Positions 12,376 to 21,453 of a stretch of DNA of 34,339 nucleotides are shown piece by piece (within the stretch, counting starts at the first letter, position 1; the number at the start of each line of letters is the position of its first letter). The translations under genes were made by a program, and so were the position numbers. The stretch spans positions 1-34,339 of the forward strand of contig SKNY01000102.1 of NCBI GenBank assembly GCA_007123105.1, in the 5' to 3' direction. The stretch is from Salinarchaeum sp. Its GTDB lineage: Archaea > Halobacteriota > Halobacteria > Halobacteriales > SKNY01. Under the pieces are notes generated by a model. That model was given only the letters and a program-made list of their open reading frames with translations, was not told the DNA's origin and made no database searches.

Positions 12376-13158
12376 ATGTCGGCATTGGATGGGAAAACGG
12401 CGGTCGTCACCGGTGGCTCGAAGGGCATCGGTCGGGCGATTGCCGCGTCGTTTGCAGCACAGGGCGCCGCAGTTGTCGTCACATCTCGATCGGCCGACCG
12501 CGCAAAGGACGCGGCGGCGGAGATTCAGGACGAGGGAGGTGAAGCGATCGGTCGGGCGGCCGACGTTGCCGATTACGACGCAATGGAACAACTCATTGCG
12601 GCCACGGTCACGGAGTATGGACGGCTCGACGTGATGGTCAACAACGCCGGCATGACGGTGATCGAGCCGGCGACGACGTTCGATCCGGATGACTGGCGTC
12701 GCGTCATCGACGTCGACCTCACGGGGGTGTTTTTCGGCAGTCAACTCGCCGCCCGCCAGATGATCGACCAGGGGAACGGCGGTGCCATCCTCAATATCTC
12801 CTCGATGATGGGCAAGATGGGCTTGGCTCGCCGTGCTGCCTACTGTGCCGCCAAGGGGGGTGTCGACAATCTCACGCGAACGCTCGCGGTCGAATGGGCG
12901 CCCTACGACATCTCCGTAAACGCACTTGCCCCGGGATACATCCACACCGACATCACCGACCAAACCCAGGATTCGGCCGGGTATACTGAGGATGACATCC
13001 GCAAACGGACGCCGATGGAGCGGTTCGGCACCCCCGAGGAGATGGCGGAATGTGCGACGTTTCTCGTCTCGGGCACCAATTTCGTGACCGGGGAGGTACT
13101 CACCGCCGACGGTGGCTGGACCGCCGACGCGTGGCGATACGAGGAGGACCGCCGATGA
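12376..13158 (+). CDS. Short-chain dehydrogenase/reductase, sugar or sugar-acid type
   Basis: This 260-residue classical SDR has the nucleotide motif TGGSKGIG (residues 12-19), NNAG (89-92), the catalytic Ser around 142-143, and Tyr156 and Lys160 in YCAAK. It oxidises or reduces a hydroxyl group using NAD(P). Sequence style is that of gluconate 5-dehydrogenase, L-fucose or L-rhamnose dehydrogenase and 2-keto-3-deoxy-sugar-acid dehydrogenases. Its stop overlaps the next gene's start as ATGA (13155-13158), tying it to the UxaA-type dehydratase genes. A CTTTACC sequence about 26 nt before the start may be the TATA box of the island's first operon. The exact substrate is not readable from sequence. 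Confidence 0.88.
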   Translation: MSALDGKTAVVTGGSKGIGRAIAASFAAQGAAVVVTSRSADRAKDAAAEIQDEGGEAIGRAADVADYDAMEQLIAATVTEYGRLDVMVNNAGMTVIEPATTFDPDDWRRVIDVDLTGVFFGSQLAARQMIDQGNGGAILNISSMMGKMGLARRAAYCAAKGGVDNLTRTLAVEWAPYDISVNALAPGYIHTDITDQTQDSAGYTEDDIRKRTPMERFGTPEEMAECATFLVSGTNFVTGEVLTADGGWTADAWRYEEDRR

Positions 13159-14348
13159 GCGAGTCCACCTTCGACGGATACCACCGGCCGGACGGGCGAA
13201 TCGGCATCCGAAATTACGTCGCGGTGGTGCCAATGTCTGCGACGGCGAGCCCCATCGCCAAACGACTGGCGGCCGATGCAGAGCACATGGTCCGTGCGAC
13301 ACCCCATCAACTGCCATTACACCCGCCAACGCCAGCCCGCGAACAGCTCGAACGGGTCCTCGTCGGGATCGCACACAATCCCAACGTCGCTGGCACGTTA
13401 TTCGTCGGCCTCGGCACGGAATCTACCGCGATCGAGGAGCTGGCAGATCGAGCGGCACGCGCGGGAAAACCCGTCGAAACCATGACGATTCACGACGCCG
13501 GGGGCGTGTCCGGTGCGATCGAATCGGGGAGCGATCACATTGTCTCACTCGTCGACGATGCCCGCGATGCGACCCGATCGCCGGCGTCGATGGAATCGCT
13601 CATCGTTGGGCTCGAGTGTGGGGGCAGTGACGCCACCAGCGGGCTCGCCTCGAACCCGGTCGTGGGGCGAGCCTGCGATCGACTCGTCGCGGCGGGCGGC
13701 ACCGGCGTGATCAGTGAGACCCCCGAGTTCATCGGTGCCGAACACATCCTTGCCGATCGATGTGCCGACGACGCGGTGCGCGACCGATTACTCGCGTGCG
13801 TCGACCGCCGGGAACGGATGGCCGATCTGATGGGGGTGGACTTTCGCGGGGCCCAACCCTCGCCCGGCAATCAGGAGGGTGGTCTAACCACCATCGAGGA
13901 AAAAAGTCTCGGTGCGATCGCAAAAGGTGGCACCACGCCGCTCCAGGACGTGATTGCGTACGGGAAGTCCTTGCCCGTCGGCGGCGGGTTCGTGGTCATG
14001 GACACGCCCGGATACGACGTCGAAAGCGTCTCCGGGAAGGTCGCGGGCGGGGCCCAACTCGTGATCTTCACGACCGGTCGCGGTTCGACCACCGGGAATC
14101 CGATCGCGCCGGTCATCAAAGTGACCGGCAACCCGGAAACGGCGGCCCGCATGGCAGATAACATGGACGTCGACGCCTCGGGTGTCGTCGCCGGCGAGCG
14201 CATTGACGACATCGGCGATGATCTGTTCGAGACGATACGGGCGGTCGCGGACGGCCAGCCAACGGCGGCTGAGCGGTTCGGCATGGCAGAGTTCGCGATC
14301 AACGACATCCCACCGAACGAGATCGCGTCGATGGGGGCACCAGAATGA
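13155..14348 (+). CDS. UxaA/GarD-superfamily dehydratase, large subunit 1 (C-terminal motifs intact)
   Basis: This 397-residue protein is homologous to the large part of altronate (UxaA) and galactarate (GarD) dehydratases. It starts with RPDGRIGIRNY (residues 11-21). The second half is well conserved: CGGSDATSG (155-163), the block SETPE (188-191 and beyond), PSPGN (235-239), GGLTTIEEKSLGAIAKGG (242-259) and FTTGRGS. The first-half cysteine motifs are gone: the TxxC, H-x-x-GC and LGCE positions read MSAT, HQLP and LGTE. The gene overlaps both neighbours by 4 bp (ATGA). The real start is the ATG at 13155, not the longer open frame. It probably works together with the SAF subunit and large subunit 2. 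Confidence 0.88.
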   Translation: MSESTFDGYHRPDGRIGIRNYVAVVPMSATASPIAKRLAADAEHMVRATPHQLPLHPPTPAREQLERVLVGIAHNPNVAGTLFVGLGTESTAIEELADRAARAGKPVETMTIHDAGGVSGAIESGSDHIVSLVDDARDATRSPASMESLIVGLECGGSDATSGLASNPVVGRACDRLVAAGGTGVISETPEFIGAEHILADRCADDAVRDRLLACVDRRERMADLMGVDFRGAQPSPGNQEGGLTTIEEKSLGAIAKGGTTPLQDVIAYGKSLPVGGGFVVMDTPGYDVESVSGKVAGGAQLVIFTTGRGSTTGNPIAPVIKVTGNPETAARMADNMDVDASGVVAGERIDDIGDDLFETIRAVADGQPTAAERFGMAEFAINDIPPNEIASMGAPE

Positions 14349-14647
14349 AAGGCACGACCCTCGAAGACGCGGCAATTGTCATGACGCCGGAGGACACCGT
14401 CGGCACTGCGATCACTGACCTCGTCGCAGATCGGACGCTCACACTCAGGGACGACCACGCGGTCACGCTCACCGAGCCGATCCAGTTCGGCCACAAATTC
14501 GCACTCGTCGGCCACGAGCCCGACGACGAAGTCGTCAAATACGGGGCAGTAATTGGACGGGCGACCACCACAATTCGGCCCGGCGATTGGGTTCACACCC
14601 ACAACGTGGAGAGTATTCGGGGCCAACCGGCGGAGGACCGGCCATGA
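14345..14647 (+). CDS. UxaA N-terminal (SAF) domain protein, small subunit
   Basis: This 100-residue stand-alone SAF domain corresponds to the N-terminal domain of UxaA/GarD. The family pattern is visible in QFGHKFALVGHE, VVKYGAVIGRATT and GDWVHTHNVES. In E. coli UxaA this domain is fused to the large part, while in many archaea and Bacillus-type systems it is separate. It carries conserved His residues (H in GHKFAL and the HTHN motif) near the active site of related enzymes. The gene is sandwiched between the two large-subunit paralogs with 4-bp ATGA overlaps on both sides, strong evidence for stoichiometric co-translation. Confidence 0.9.
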   Translation: MKGTTLEDAAIVMTPEDTVGTAITDLVADRTLTLRDDHAVTLTEPIQFGHKFALVGHEPDDEVVKYGAVIGRATTTIRPGDWVHTHNVESIRGQPAEDRP

Positions 14648-15744
14648 GCCGCTCGCGCACGCACCCGACCATCGCGGGCTTCCCGCGGGAGACACGCCGC
14701 GCCGGAATCAGAGACCATCTCCTCATCATGCCGTCGGTGATTTGTTCTGCGCTCGTCTCCGAGGCAATCGCCGATGCCGTTCCAGGAGCGATCGCGGTTC
14801 CCCACGACCACGGTTGTGCACAGATCGGCGGCGATAAGGACCAGACCAGACGGACGCTCCTGCACGTCGCGGCCAATCCAAACGTCGCCGGGGTCGTCCT
14901 CGTTGGTCTCGGGTGTGAGACGCTCAACAGCGAGGAGCTCGCCGCAGACGTTGACGTCCCCGTCCGACAGACCTCGATTCAGGGGACCGGAAGCACGGAC
15001 GCGACGATCGCAGCCGGGATCGAGGCGGCCGAGGAGCTCAGCGCTGGGTCGGCGCCGTCACGGTCTGCCGTGGGGATCGAGGAACTCACGGTGGGTATCG
15101 TTGCGAGTGACGCTGCGTCCACGACCGTGAACCACGTCTATCCGATGCTCGGCGGGTTGGTCGACCGGCTCGTGGCCGCGGGCGGCCGCGTCGTCGTCGG
15201 TGGGCTCGACCCGTTCGTCCCCCACCGGTCGGCGATCGTCGACCTCGTCGGTGACACCGCCACCGCGACCGAGCTCGACGCCATGCTCGAGGCCCGGACG
15301 ACGAACGGAATCCCGACTCGCGTCCATCGAGACGCTGCTGATCTATCGCTTGCGGACCTCGGAACCATGTTTGGCAACAAGCCCATTGCTGGCGCGTACA
15401 CGTACGGGTCCATCGCGTGTCACGACACCGGGGTCGCGGTCGTCGATACGTCGGCAGCCTTCGAGGAGGCGGCAACGGGGCTCGTTGCGGCCGGTGCACA
15501 ACTGATCGTCCACGCGACCGCTGCCGGGATCCCCACCGGCCACCCGGTGGCCCCGGTCATCTCGATGACAGGAGATGCATCGACCGCAGCCGCGATGGGC
15601 GAGGACGTGGACGTCGATGCTACGGCCACCGACGAGGCCACCCTCTACGATCGAGTGATTCGCGTGGCGAGCGGAGAAGCAACCGCAGCCGAGCGTCACG
15701 GACTGTCCCCGTTTGCGATCACGCGGACCGGACCATCGCTGTAG
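14644..15744 (+). CDS. UxaA/GarD-superfamily dehydratase, large subunit 2 (N-terminal motifs intact)
   Basis: This 366-residue paralog of the gene at 13155 shows the opposite conservation pattern. The first-half motifs are present: the Cys in MPSVICSAL (C34), HDHGCAQIGGD (54-64) and NPNVAGVVLVGLGCE (78-92). The second-half motifs are missing: the CGGSD position reads IVASDAAS, and PSPGN with GGLTTI is replaced by LSLADLGTMFGNKP. The end (GAQLIVHATAAG, PVAPVISMTG, DVDVDA) still aligns with subunit 1. The true start is the ATG at 14644, overlapping the SAF gene stop by 4 bp. It ends 2 bp from the convergent GH88/105-like gene. A heteromeric enzyme with subunit 1 is the simplest reading. Confidence 0.85.
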   Translation: MSRSRTHPTIAGFPRETRRAGIRDHLLIMPSVICSALVSEAIADAVPGAIAVPHDHGCAQIGGDKDQTRRTLLHVAANPNVAGVVLVGLGCETLNSEELAADVDVPVRQTSIQGTGSTDATIAAGIEAAEELSAGSAPSRSAVGIEELTVGIVASDAASTTVNHVYPMLGGLVDRLVAAGGRVVVGGLDPFVPHRSAIVDLVGDTATATELDAMLEARTTNGIPTRVHRDAADLSLADLGTMFGNKPIAGAYTYGSIACHDTGVAVVDTSAAFEEAATGLVAAGAQLIVHATAAGIPTGHPVAPVISMTGDASTAAAMGEDVDVDATATDEATLYDRVIRVASGEATAAERHGLSPFAITRTGPSL

Positions 15745-15746
15745 GG

Positions 15747-17219
15747 CTATCTACGCACCGAGTCGGCTCCGACGTCACGGTCAAATTGTTCGATAACAGC
15801 TCGCAGGTTGGTGAGCAATCCAAGCCCGTACTGGGCGATGACGCGGTACCCATTCCGCTGTAGCGATTCGCCACCTGCGTTGTGTTGGGCGACGCACGTC
15901 AACAGGCCGTCGGGGGTGACGTATTCTACCAATTCGTGGTAAGTACTGGTCGCGATGCGGTACGCGTCGTCTCGATCGGTGAGGCCGCTTAATCCGGCAT
16001 GGCCAATGGCCGCGGCGATTCCAGCAGATCCCGACGTTTCGACGCCCGTCTCGGGATCATCAGTGAAACACGCCCACAACCCCGCCGGTTGACGATGACC
16101 AATCACCAAATCATTGATATCATCCCACGCACCTCGAAGTCGTTCGACCGATACCGACGACCTGAGGCGGTTCCAATCACCAGTATCCGGTGTCGCAGCG
16201 AGTAACCGGAACGTCCGGGCGATGCCGAGCATGTACCAGGCATACGCACGGCTCCAATTTTTGAACGTGCGCGAACCGTCTTCGTGGGAGCGCAAGTAAA
16301 GGTCGTCAGCGACTGGCAAGTGATCCACCCGAGCAATGAGTTGCCGGATCGCCTCCCGGCCGACGCCCGGGTCATCGCGTGTCACCGCGTACCGCATGAG
16401 GGGGTAGGCAACGGTGTAGGCGCCCTCCGCGGTGACCGCGCCGCCACGGATAATCCCGTCATTACGTTTTTGGGACAGCGTGTGCGCAAGGAGGCGATCG
16501 GTCACGGAACGAGTTGGCCAGACGTCGGTGAATGCGCCCAGCATCAGCATCGATTCGATGCCACCCGGGTCGATGGCGAGATCACCGTTTGGACCCAGAT
16601 AGCGCTCGAGGTGATCGATGGCGGCCGCCCGCCAATCCGCAGCATCATCGGCGCATGTGGCCATCGCGAGCATACCATCGAGAACACAGCCTTCCATCCA
16701 GCCGAACGGTTGCTGGCTGGCTGCAGACTGCATCGTCGCCGTCATCGCCCGTTCCTTGTCGGCGTCCGATACCGAGGCCGGGGCGATCAAGAGGTGCGGG
16801 GTGAGCATTTGGTCGTGATCACCAGTTGGCCCCTCAGCGATCACCCACGTCGGCGTCGAGCCAGTAATCTGGGTGAGACCGATGCCGCCCTCGCACACAC
16901 TCGACACGGCCGACCGATCGAGTTGGAGTTCGAACGGCTGGCATGGGTACGAGAACCGGAGATCGAATTCGCCGAGGTGGCGATCAGCGTGCGGATCGGT
17001 CACCGCGATGGTTCGTCGTTCGTCGAACCGAACGGCGGTGGTACATCGTAACCAGATCCGGTGGTCAGACGGCGGTGTGGCGTCGAGTGACCGTGTCCAT
17101 TCGAGCCGCGGCTCCGATCGGGCCGAAACCGGTCTCGCCGACCAATCGAACGGGGGTACATCGGTAGCAGGCAAGGAATCCCGTGACCGCCACGCGACAC
17201 AATCTGGCGGGTAATCCAT
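15747..17219 (-). CDS. GH88/GH105-like unsaturated uronyl hydrolase with extra N-terminal domain
   Basis: From the ATG at 17217-17219 this is a 490-residue cytoplasmic protein with no signal peptide. From about residue 155 it resembles the alpha6/alpha6 barrel of GH88/GH105 enzymes, which remove unsaturated uronic acid from oligosaccharides made by polysaccharide lyases. NWSRAYAW (321-328) matches the family W-x-R-x-x-x-W segment, and ETSGSAGIAAAI resembles the conserved E-x-S-x-(T/A)-A motif. The N-terminal 150 residues (with YPCQPFELQL and HLLIAP) form an additional, probably beta-rich part not found in YteR-type enzymes of about 370 residues. It is divergent from the GH29 gene across a 122-bp gap. 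The substrate is unproven. Confidence 0.7.
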   Translation of the reverse strand: MDYPPDCVAWRSRDSLPATDVPPFDWSARPVSARSEPRLEWTRSLDATPPSDHRIWLRCTTAVRFDERRTIAVTDPHADRHLGEFDLRFSYPCQPFELQLDRSAVSSVCEGGIGLTQITGSTPTWVIAEGPTGDHDQMLTPHLLIAPASVSDADKERAMTATMQSAASQQPFGWMEGCVLDGMLAMATCADDAADWRAAAIDHLERYLGPNGDLAIDPGGIESMLMLGAFTDVWPTRSVTDRLLAHTLSQKRNDGIIRGGAVTAEGAYTVAYPLMRYAVTRDDPGVGREAIRQLIARVDHLPVADDLYLRSHEDGSRTFKNWSRAYAWYMLGIARTFRLLAATPDTGDWNRLRSSVSVERLRGAWDDINDLVIGHRQPAGLWACFTDDPETGVETSGSAGIAAAIGHAGLSGLTDRDDAYRIATSTYHELVEYVTPDGLLTCVAQHNAGGESLQRNGYRVIAQYGLGLLTNLRAVIEQFDRDVGADSVRR

Positions 17220-17316: not shown

Positions 17317-17341
17317 TGCTTCCACCCCGATCTGCGTTCGT

Positions 17342-18733
17342 ATGGCTGGCACCTACGAACCGACGTGGTCGTCCCTCGACGCCCACCCGGTGCCACAGTG
17401 GTTCGACGACGCCAAACTCGGGATCTGGATCCACTGGGGCATCTACTCCGTGCCGGCGTGGGCGCCCCCGCCGGCGGAACCACCCGAACACGCCTACGCC
17501 GAATGGTATCCGTACTACATGTACCGACCGGGAAATCGCTTTTACGAGTACCATCGCGAGACGTACGGGGCCGACGTCGACTACGCCGATTTCATCGCCG
17601 ACTGGACGGCAGCAGCGTTCGACCCGAACGCGTGGGCAGAATTGTTTGCCGACATCGGTGCCCGGTACGTCGTCATCACTGGCGAGCACCACGACGGCTT
17701 CCCGTTGTGGGATACTGCCGTCACCAAGTACAATGCGAGCCAGATGGGCCCAGAACGCGACATCGTTGCGGAACTCGCCGACGCGGTGCGACGCCGCGGT
17801 TTGAAATTTGCCCCGTCGTTCCACGGCCTGCTCAACTACTATCAGCCGGATCCCGACGCCCCGCAAGGGCAACCGATCGGTGCGGACGGTGGCGACCCGC
17901 CATCACCCGAATACGTCGCGTACATGCACGACAAACTGGACGAGCTCATCGAGGCCTACAAACCGGATCTCCTGTGGCTCGACGGCGATTGGATCGCGGA
18001 TGCGGAGACGTTCGGCACGAAAGCAACGGTTGCCCGATATTACAATGCCGCCGAACACTGGGGGAAAGAAGTCGTGGTCAACGATCGACTCGGTCGAACC
18101 CGGTGGAAACACGAAGGCGACACCCACGGCGACTTCTACACCCCTGAGTACGAGGAGTTCGACGAGATCGTCGAGCACAAGTGGGAGGCGTGTCGCGGGA
18201 TCGGTCACTCGTTCGGGTACAATCAGGCCGAGGGGCAAGCCGAGTATCTCGATCCCCGCGAGCTCGTCCACCTGTTCGTCGATACGGTCGCGAAGAACGG
18301 GAATCTCCTGATCAATGTGGGCCCAACGGCCGATGGGAGGATCCCGGAGCCCCAACGGCTGCGGCTCGAAGCCCTCGGTGGCTGGTTGGATCAGTACGGC
18401 GAGGCCATCTTTGGCACGACGTACTGGATCACCCACGACGATCCGACGAGTACCGTCCCCGTGCGATACACGTGGAAGGACGGGACGCTCTATGCAATTG
18501 CGCTCGAGTGGCCGGGGGATGACTTACGACTGGCAGTTCCCGAACATGTCGACATCGATCCGGCTGCGATCGAGATCCGGCTGCTCGGCCAAGCAGGAAA
18601 GCTCGCGTGCCGGCGACGTGGCAGGACACTCACGATCGACACACCTGGGCAGCCGCGCGAGGTGCACGTCCAGTACGCACACGCGTTCGCGATCGACGAC
18701 GTGGCCAATCCGGCAACAGCAGACGACGAGTAA
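17342..18733 (+). CDS. GH29 alpha-L-fucosidase
   Basis: This 463-residue glycoside hydrolase of family 29 releases L-fucose with retention of configuration. Family features are the opening WFDDAKLGIWIHWGIYSVPAW (20-40), GEHHDGF (114-120), the nucleophile Asp214 in LLWLDGDW, and NLLINVGPTADG near the end of the barrel. A short beta-sandwich-like tail follows. There is no signal peptide, so it works in the cytoplasm on imported oligosaccharides. I use the ATG at 17342 because the upstream frame to 17222 lacks family similarity and covers the divergent promoter. A dyad repeat sits 26-43 nt upstream. Confidence 0.93.
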   Translation: MAGTYEPTWSSLDAHPVPQWFDDAKLGIWIHWGIYSVPAWAPPPAEPPEHAYAEWYPYYMYRPGNRFYEYHRETYGADVDYADFIADWTAAAFDPNAWAELFADIGARYVVITGEHHDGFPLWDTAVTKYNASQMGPERDIVAELADAVRRRGLKFAPSFHGLLNYYQPDPDAPQGQPIGADGGDPPSPEYVAYMHDKLDELIEAYKPDLLWLDGDWIADAETFGTKATVARYYNAAEHWGKEVVVNDRLGRTRWKHEGDTHGDFYTPEYEEFDEIVEHKWEACRGIGHSFGYNQAEGQAEYLDPRELVHLFVDTVAKNGNLLINVGPTADGRIPEPQRLRLEALGGWLDQYGEAIFGTTYWITHDDPTSTVPVRYTWKDGTLYAIALEWPGDDLRLAVPEHVDIDPAAIEIRLLGQAGKLACRRRGRTLTIDTPGQPREVHVQYAHAFAIDDVANPATADDE

Positions 18734-19389: not shown

Positions 19390-21453
19390 ATGGATCGTCG
19401 TCGGATGCTCCTGCTTTGTGGGGCGGCCGTGCTGTCCGTTGCCGGCTGCACCGGCGAGGATGATGACGGGGAATCCGGAACGGACAGCGTGGACGAAACA
19501 GATATCGAGCTAACCACCGCGAGCACGGACGACATCGCCGATGCGAGCAATGCGGGCGAGACGGCGGTTCCCCCGGTCGAACCGGTCGATCTCATCGATC
19601 TCGACCCGGCCACATTCGAGGACGACGAAGTGGATCTCCCGTATTATCTGGCGAATTTCCACGAAGTGGCAAACGCCATCGTTACTACGGGGAACGACGC
19701 GGGCTTCATCGATCGCCACGTCTGGCGTTTGGAAGCCGACCAGGAACCGTACAACGCCCGGGTGATGGAGAACATCCTGTCGCTCGCGTGGTTTTACACG
19801 ACGAATCGACCGTGGAATCCATACTTTGGCGACCGGAAGCTTCGCCAGCGACTCGAGCTGACACTCTCGTTCTGGACGGACATGCAGGCGGGCGACGGCC
19901 GATTTAGCGAATACGGACGATACAACTGGAATCTTGCCGCGACGGCATTCGCCACGAAGTTCATCGGGGAGGCACTCGTCCGCCTCGATCAGTCCGTTGT
20001 GGCGGTCGATGAGGAGCTCTACGACGAGGCACTTGATGCCCTGCGTGCCGCGATCATGGTCACGCTCACGGACGACGCGTTTCGTGAGGACGGGGCCTCC
20101 TTCGCGAACCAGTTCTCGAACGTCTGGGGCGGGGCCGGGGCGTATCTCAGTATCCGCGACGACGAGGAGGTACATGCCGCACTCGAGGCGGCCCTCGCGG
20201 ACGCAGATCGCATGCTGAGTACCGCGGGATTTTATTACGAAGCGGACGGGCCGGATTTCGGCTACGGGTGGGGGACCGAACAGAGCAATCAGCAGGCCGC
20301 CTGGCATTATCTTGGAAACGTCGACGAATCGCTCCAGGCCGCGTTCGTTGCACACACCCAGCCGTTCTGGGAATGGCTCTCGTATGCAGCGGTCGTCGAA
20401 CCCGATGGGACGGCGTGGTTTCACCCGGGAGGTGTGGCCGCACGAACCGACTGGACGTCGAGTCGCGCGGCGTTCGGGGTAGGCAATCCGCTGGCCGAAT
20501 CGATCGAGACCGTCCGGGCATTCCACTACATCGATCGTGAGCGACACGACTGGCTCGACCATCACTGGTCGATGCGCCAGAACCGGTGGCCAGCGGTCGA
20601 GCGACTCGGCTACGGGGTCTCGACGTTTAGTCCATACGCGTTTCTCCACCGGGACCACGAACGCACGTCGGTACAGGCGGTCGACCGGCGAGCCGCCCGC
20701 GAGGCGCTCCCATACATCGATCAGGAAACCTTCACCCACCAACGGGTCGACGATCGCGTCGGCACGGCGTTTACGTTCGTCCGGCGACCGAGCTATTATG
20801 CGATCCTATCGGCCGGGCCGCTGGCCAACGACGGCCAGTCGAATGGCCTCCATCTGCTCTGGCATCCACAAGTGGGTACGTGGTGGCAAACGGCACGAGA
20901 GGGACCGCGGACCGGGACGACCACCGAAGGGACCACGCTCGAAACGGCGGCCGACGAGGTCAGCTACGAGATCGCGGGCGAATCCGTCGCGGCCACGCCC
21001 GGAGTCGAGGAATTACCGGACGGGCCACTCACGGTCACGTATCGAAACGAAGCGGGACACAAGGAGATCAGGTTCGACGAAAAGATCACGGTCGACGTGG
21101 CCGTCGAGGGCGGGTTCACCGAGTTGATTCCGTTGCTCCTCCGGGAACGGGACAGCGTCTCGATCGACCATGACGACGATCGATTCACCCTCGACCTCGA
21201 GCGAAACGATGTGCGGGTGTCCATCACCGCAACGGGGGTCAACGCACACGAGTCAACGACCGACACTTTTCACGTTGGGCGGGCTGGTGGAGACAATCAT
21301 CTGTTCGGGACCACAACGGCGTTCGACGACGTGACCAACGAGGAACGCGAGCGATTGTACGGAGTCGGGTGGCCTCGCCGGGTCCGACAACTCGTATTCG
21401 ACGCCCGTGATTCACTGTCCTATACGGTGTCGGCACACACCACCGATCCGTAG
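19390..21453 (+). CDS. Large secreted lipoprotein, possible polysaccharide lyase (alpha/alpha toroid plus beta domain)
   Basis: This 687-residue protein begins MDRRRMLLLCGAAVLSVAGC, an Arg-rich lipoprotein signal with lipobox VAGC (Cys20), and an Asp/Glu/Thr-rich linker follows to about residue 65. Residues about 75-420 are helical and rich in Trp and Tyr (for example YNWNLAATAFATKFIGEAL and FANQFSNVWGG), typical of an alpha/alpha toroid. The last 250 residues look like a beta-sandwich (VSYEIAGESV, LTVTYRNEAG). This two-part design is seen in polysaccharide lyases of the heparinase II/III and chondroitin-lyase type, but I see no family-specific catalytic motif. It would act outside the cell and supply unsaturated oligosaccharides to the GH88/105-like enzyme. 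A CTTATG element lies about 26 nt upstream. Confidence 0.6.
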   Translation: MDRRRMLLLCGAAVLSVAGCTGEDDDGESGTDSVDETDIELTTASTDDIADASNAGETAVPPVEPVDLIDLDPATFEDDEVDLPYYLANFHEVANAIVTTGNDAGFIDRHVWRLEADQEPYNARVMENILSLAWFYTTNRPWNPYFGDRKLRQRLELTLSFWTDMQAGDGRFSEYGRYNWNLAATAFATKFIGEALVRLDQSVVAVDEELYDEALDALRAAIMVTLTDDAFREDGASFANQFSNVWGGAGAYLSIRDDEEVHAALEAALADADRMLSTAGFYYEADGPDFGYGWGTEQSNQQAAWHYLGNVDESLQAAFVAHTQPFWEWLSYAAVVEPDGTAWFHPGGVAARTDWTSSRAAFGVGNPLAESIETVRAFHYIDRERHDWLDHHWSMRQNRWPAVERLGYGVSTFSPYAFLHRDHERTSVQAVDRRAAREALPYIDQETFTHQRVDDRVGTAFTFVRRPSYYAILSAGPLANDGQSNGLHLLWHPQVGTWWQTAREGPRTGTTTEGTTLETAADEVSYEIAGESVAATPGVEELPDGPLTVTYRNEAGHKEIRFDEKITVDVAVEGGFTELIPLLLRERDSVSIDHDDDRFTLDLERNDVRVSITATGVNAHESTTDTFHVGRAGGDNHLFGTTTAFDDVTNEERERLYGVGWPRRVRQLVFDARDSLSYTVSAHTTDP

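Follow-up and report, generated by a model that had tools for sequence, protein, structure and literature searches.

Two UxaA/GarD paralogs with complementary motif loss and a stand-alone SAF subunit probably form a heteromeric dehydratase in haloarchaea

Results and discussion

Organization of the locus

The stretch of DNA analysed here, hereafter the window, is contig SKNY01000102.1 of Salinarchaeum sp. (34,339 nucleotides, GCA_007123105.1), part of a 1.88 Mb haloarchaeal assembly that is 67% complete. It encodes two paralogs of the UxaA/GarD dehydratase large subunit, named A and B, with a stand-alone SAF subunit between them, in an operon preceded by a gene of the short-chain dehydrogenase/reductase (SDR) family (Table 1). 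Successive genes share 4-nt ATGA overlaps at 13155 (SDR and A), 14345 (A and SAF) and 14644 (SAF and B), and SDR and A probably belong to the same transcription unit. The coordinates, reading frames and overlaps given for A, SAF and B in an initial annotation of the window were found to be correct on re-examination. In that annotation it was proposed that A and B lost opposite halves of the family motifs and that, together with SAF, they build an obligate heteromeric dehydratase.

Table 1. Genes and motif codons of the A-SAF-B operon and its surroundings in the window.
Feature	Position	Strand	Evidence or remark
SDR-family dehydrogenase	12376-13158	+	PF13561/PF00106; ATGA overlap with gene A at 13155
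Gene A, UxaA/GarD large-subunit paralog, 397 aa	13155-14348	+	PF04295 + full PF20629
A Cys155 codon (= GarD C288; fourth Cys of the proposed iron site)	13617-13619	+	alignment
A PGN motif, residues 237-239	13863-13871	+	alignment
SAF subunit, stand-alone, 100 aa	14345-14647	+	PF08666; matches 3k3s/3laz/6u7l N-terminus
Gene B, UxaA/GarD large-subunit paralog, 366 aa	14644-15744	+	PF04295 + part of PF20629
B Cys34 codon (= GarD C144)	14743-14745	+	alignment
B Cys58 codon (= GarD C179)	14815-14817	+	alignment
B Cys91 codon (= GarD C215)	14914-14916	+	alignment
Alpha-L-fucosidase (GH29)	17318-18733	+	PF01120, E=4.5e-110

A and B both carry PF04295, the second domain of UxaA/GarD, and PF20629 is matched over the whole domain in A (310 bits) and over its later, C-terminal half in B (75 bits). 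For each of them, E. coli GarD (6u7l) was the sole sequence match in the Protein Data Bank (PDB) and also the best fold match of the AlphaFold model, with a mean predicted local distance difference test (pLDDT) of 85 and a template modelling (TM) score of 0.72 for A, and a pLDDT of 91 and a TM score of 0.78 for B, implying that B is a folded two-domain protein and not a fragment. Confidence was low at the CGGSD and PGN loops of the A model, as expected if a cofactor or a partner orders them. With their second and C-terminal GD_AH domains and the GarD fold, both paralogs belong to the UxaA/GarD superfamily (COG2721), the SAF domain being provided by the separate gene between them, which corresponds to SuyA and to the N-terminal domain of GarD/UxaA. 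The four cysteines of UxaA/GarD enzymes, on the other hand, are not gathered in one large chain, B having three of them and A the remaining one.

Complementary motif loss in A and B

Column conservation was followed, with GarD residue numbering, in alignment sets freed of near-copies and comprising 74 A, 78 B, 23 SuyB-like proteins and 13 single-chain 4-Cys enzymes (E. coli GarD and UxaA, nine other bacterial enzymes and two archaeal, non-haloarchaeal ones), the degenerate second A/B pair of the same genome (C87, described below) being excluded. The single-chain enzymes share 44 invariant columns, whose residues E. coli GarD and UxaA each carry on a single polypeptide. C144, C179 and C215 are absent from A (0/74 each), while the remaining 41 columns are kept in 91-100% of the A sequences. 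B, conversely, has the three cysteines in 78 of 78 sequences and has lost 13 of the 44 columns, with 8 more partially kept, all within the C-terminal domain. The columns lost or weakened in B include C288, S291, D292, G296, N300, E321, E324, P367, the PGN/GG loop, K382, G385, K389, F436 and G478; two of the 78 B proteins do have a Cys at the C288 column, but it is isolated, the other residues of the motif being absent. None of the 44 columns is thus missing from both paralogs, and most are retained by A.

In the window itself, the residues kept are C155-GGSD, E188, E191 and P237-G-N239 in A, which also retains the ETPE motif, and C34, H54-x-HGC58 and LGC91-E92 in B. The motif sets initially assigned are borne out by the alignment, A having LGTE, no H-x-x-GC, and both CGGSD and PGN/GGL, and B having the early Cys, HDHGC and LGCE and missing CGGSD and PGN/GG. 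That each protein keeps only one half set is true of the three cysteines of A and of the CGGSD and PGN/GG motifs of B, but overstated otherwise, as H175 and LG-E are retained across the A clade, and the fold and the final third of the C-terminal domain persist in B. Mean identity is 0.79 in the C-terminal domain of A compared with 0.64 in its second domain, and 0.64 in the second domain of B compared with 0.53 in its C-terminal domain, the better-conserved half of each paralog being the one that retains its motifs. Invariant blocks are nevertheless strong in both halves of B. The motif split was seen in every clade member examined (74-75 A and 78-79 B, near-copies removed), the C87 pair being the sole exception.

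Co-occurrence across haloarchaea

Loci were retrieved through a class-wide search of 394 genomes, 74 of which have PF20629, and an independent scan of about 85,000 species genomes with the B alignment added 43 loci; some species are counted in both collections. At all 97 loci where the three genes could be called, they follow each other in the order A-SAF-B on one strand, with 4-nt overlaps between A and SAF in 95 and between SAF and B in 73. The scan with B only gave 41 haloarchaeal loci, and A lies just upstream in 41 of 41. Haloferax, Haladaptatus, Halosimplex, Natrinema, Haloterrigena and Halorubrum are among the hosts. As to whether A and B always co-occur, a question raised with the original proposal, no intact member of the A or B clade was found alone in the combined haloarchaeal set.

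Apparent orphans were ruled out, as a contig break separates A from B in genome G122, B is frameshifted in H. denitrificans (G191, locus L152), and a deletion fuses A residues 1-198 to B residues 324-366 in G239. In the last case the open frame (L118:7050-7976, +) consists of the first 198 residues of A and the last 43 of B, SAF and both middles being deleted; the whole operon was apparently lost together. At another locus (L064:7785-9230, +), SAF and B share one reading frame, by natural fusion or assembly frameshift, and resemble the SAF-fused form of GarD. Several further SAF-B fusions proved to be an artefact of this fused protein inside the SAF profile. The second A/B pair of the window's own genome (G000:C87:16246-18646; L085:8247-10641, minus strand) is a degenerate or re-purposed copy: no SAF gene lies between its members, C144 and C215 are missing from its B, and the Asn of PGN is replaced by His in its A.

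Single A-like proteins and undivided relatives

In about 20 haloarchaeal genomes, a single A-like gene comes after the SAF gene and B is missing. In these singles the three Cys columns are occupied by Tyr, Arg and Gly and the C-terminal domain is intact, and the SuyB-like set (20 haloarchaeal and 3 bacterial proteins) has an invariant fourth Cys at the C288 column. A dehydrogenase of the Ldh/ComC family and a sulfate-exporter gene are each found beside 12 of 19 singles, compared with 3 of 97 and 0 of 97 A-SAF-B loci respectively, and the annotated singles resemble suyA-suyB-comC clusters. Neither a ComC nor a sulfate-exporter match was obtained near the window.

In the trees, A and B each form one clade (100/100 each). 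The SuyB-like proteins form one clade (99/95) with A outside in the first tree; in the second, they are joined by L203, an additional Cys-free single from an archaeon. A also departs from SuyB in sequence, as the A clade has mostly Thr or Ala at C179 where SuyB has Arg. The A and B of the window share their nearest relative, locus L120, consistent with a joint descent of both paralogs. For the initial annotation, either paralog functioning alone with SAF would have spoken against the heteromer; A-like singles do exist, yet as a separate SuyB-like clade, and A-clade and B-clade proteins stand alone only as visibly broken copies. Since they form a separate clade in a SuyAB context, the singles do not refute a heteromer, and the possibility that A itself also occurs alone with SAF was rejected because the singles fall in or resemble the SuyB-like clade with its sulfonate-pathway genes. 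A further variant among the A-like singles (L097:6803-7978, +) has Tyr, Asn, Arg and Lys at the usual first-half positions, keeps CGGSD and has its SAF gene on the opposite strand.

Undivided single-chain relatives with four cysteines occur in bacteria (11/11) and in another lineage of Halobacteriota, represented by the non-haloarchaeal genome G520 (L200:5799-7022 and L201:5779-6951). The L200 protein is about 49% identical to A and 31% to B. A LarA-type lactate racemase-like gene lies close to both L200 and L201, and a lactate racemase domain gene also adjoins the relative in Sporomusa (L180).

Comparison with known systems

In fold and domains (PF04295, PF20629 and SAF), A, B and SAF are alike to E. 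coli GarD and UxaA (6u7l), the galactarate and altronate dehydratases, whose four cysteines and CGGSD/PGN motifs are those of A and B combined. GarD and UxaA are however single polypeptides with four cysteines and an N-terminally fused SAF domain, whereas here three genes are present and the motifs are shared between two large paralogs. Two-gene forms made of SAF and a large subunit have been inferred from gene context for the L-fuconate dehydratase of P. mimosarum (Watanabe 2019, PMC6336799) and hypothesised for L-fuconate in C. jejuni (cj0482-cj0483). Like A-SAF-B, they are multi-gene enzymes and they belong to the non-phosphorylative L-fucose route, as may be the case here, but as described they have one large subunit and no second large paralog. 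SuyAB, the (2R)-sulfolactate sulfo-lyase, combines a stand-alone SAF with a large subunit that lacks the Cys triad, as A does; it differs in having no B partner, in its separate clade, in its Ldh/ComC and sulfate-exporter neighbours and in eliminating sulfite instead of water. In the open literature (subscription papers being outside the scope), no published enzyme with two complementary large paralogs and no haloarchaeal UxaA heteromer was found, in line with the initial remark that the arrangement was not known to have been described.

A composite iron site and its alternatives

The second domain of GarD is reportedly described as a dimer interface in the paper on its structure. In the D-arabinonate dehydratase of H. 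huttiense (C785_RS13685), Cys134, Cys173, Cys208 and Cys276 are conserved across the UxaA/GarD superfamily except in sulfolactate sulfo-lyase, and a rubredoxin-type ferric site was proposed for them from electron paramagnetic resonance (EPR) and Cys-to-Ser variants, the cluster type of ILVD/EDD being argued against; the EPR spectrum also had a g~2 signal whose origin was uncertain (PMC6336799). Matched by order and spacing and not by alignment, these residues are taken to be columns C144, C179, C215 and C288, which in H. huttiense all lie in one chain, unlike in A and B. Since B holds the first three columns and A the fourth, the proposed iron site would be split three plus one. The initially suggested mapping of the lost motifs on the active site was made by way of this published proposal.

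Judged on conservation and gene order, A-SAF-B is probably one obligate heteromeric aldonate dehydratase with a composite iron site per A/B pair. The initial proposal is thus supported in part: the deep conservation of opposite halves and the strict co-occurrence speak strongly for complementary loss and an obligate heteromer, and from them we infer complex formation and a site shared by A and B. In such an enzyme, A and B would pair like the two chains of the GarD homodimer and the second domain of B would sit over the C-terminal domain of A, since a shared site in an unswapped pair demands contact between the second domain of one chain and the C-terminal domain of its partner, in agreement with the dimer interface reported for GarD. 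One complete four-Cys iron site would result, with three cysteines from B, one from A and the substrate-binding residues of A, while the mirror-image site, made of the A second domain and the B C-terminal domain, would be dead. Activated by the iron, the substrate would undergo abstraction of its alpha proton and lose water by beta-elimination to yield a 2-keto-3-deoxy acid, and the SAF subunit would cap the site, as in SuyAB and UxaA. A more specific version, whose chances are about even, is that the paralogs arose by duplication of a self-complementing homodimer and build a mononuclear four-Cys iron site in a 3+1 manner, so that each heterodimer has a live site and a dead one, in which case the iron site of GarD/UxaA would itself lie in trans between chains.

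Several points weigh against the heteromer with a composite site. A plus B as one clade is compatible with the data (approximately unbiased test, p-AU 0.36) without being positively supported. The C87 pair, with no SAF gene between its members and two of the three B cysteines lost, is an example of a degenerate pair that has survived. As seen in the SuyB-like clade, proteins with a Cys-free second domain and an intact C-terminal domain can stand alone, so that A might in principle dispense with the triad. The neighbours of A-SAF-B vary across haloarchaea with no single constant partner, and the iron site of rubredoxin type is no more than a hypothesis drawn from EPR and conservation (PMC6336799).

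The main rival explanation is that A and SAF are catalytic by themselves, without the triad, like the SuyB-like lyases, B being a structural or regulatory pseudoenzyme. It draws on the SuyB-like proteins, which share the A pattern and occur with SAF alone, and on the 41 of 44 invariant columns that A keeps. Nevertheless, the B triad is unbroken in 78 of 78 at a second-domain identity of about 0.64, while the C-terminal site of B itself is gone, which is difficult to account for with a triad that has no function; in addition, A lies outside the SuyB-like clade and intact A without B was not found in the haloarchaeal loci, making this explanation rather improbable. Much further down comes the view of B as a decaying duplicate whose complementarity to A is coincidental, which has next to no chance of being correct. 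The deletion around the PSPGN loop and the lower C-terminal identity of B would fit decay, but the confident fold model, the fully conserved triad, the invariant blocks in both halves and an operon fixed in about 100 loci do not. Chance or decay of B was rejected on these grounds, and the complementary loss, present in all A and B clade members examined except the C87 pair, is neither.

The obligate heteromer might also be built in another way, its site being completed by a domain swap, or B having its own three-Cys Fe-S cluster for structure or metal delivery instead of sharing the ligation of the catalytic iron with A C155. In favour of this variant, a [4Fe-4S] cluster can be bound by three cysteines in other dehydratases. 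So does the g~2 EPR signal of the H. huttiense enzyme speak for it, but a cluster of the ILVD/EDD type was argued against for that enzyme (PMC6336799), and A, all 13 single-chain 4-Cys enzymes and the SuyB-like set invariably have the fourth Cys. This variant takes its share from the probability of the heteromer and is judged unlikely, less so than the action of A and SAF alone.

If the heteromer with a composite site is correct, a known family of sugar-acid dehydratases would gain a new mode of assembly, and genes annotated three times as 'UxaA family hydrolase' in many haloarchaea would likely encode an obligate three-subunit dehydratase. It would also be a natural experiment on a little-understood enzyme family, in which the halves of an active site stand on separate chains, about 75 sequence pairs indicating which half supplies which residues. 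For the unsettled metal site of GarD/UxaA, the prediction would be three cysteines from the second domain of one chain and one from the C-terminal domain of the other.

Gene context and possible substrate

Neighbour families were called by searches with annotated exemplars. In haloarchaea, the neighbours of A-SAF-B are genes of sugar-acid metabolism, namely FAH-family hydrolases, SDR, mandelate-racemase-like enzymes, UxuA, LUD, IclR regulators and TRAP and ABC transporters, and given this variety no single substrate follows. The SDR of the window is probably a sugar or keto-acid dehydrogenase from its sequence; it matched generic sugar/gluconate dehydrogenases only, giving no specific substrate. 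The GH29 alpha-L-fucosidase lies 1.6 kb downstream of the operon, and its proximity, together with the SDR, leads to the guess that L-fuconate could be the substrate in this genome, a tentative one that is somewhat more doubtful than not; in other hosts the substrates may be other aldonates. FAH-family genes are present in the window's own genome, and LUD genes are absent from this 67% complete assembly.

Adjoining the operon and convergent to it, positions 15762-17000 (-) gave a weak but significant match to the GH88 family, and this gene with the GH29 gene suggests a polysaccharide-degradation locus. The same run of sugar-related genes includes a 687-aa lipoprotein-like protein with no Pfam match (19390-21453, +).

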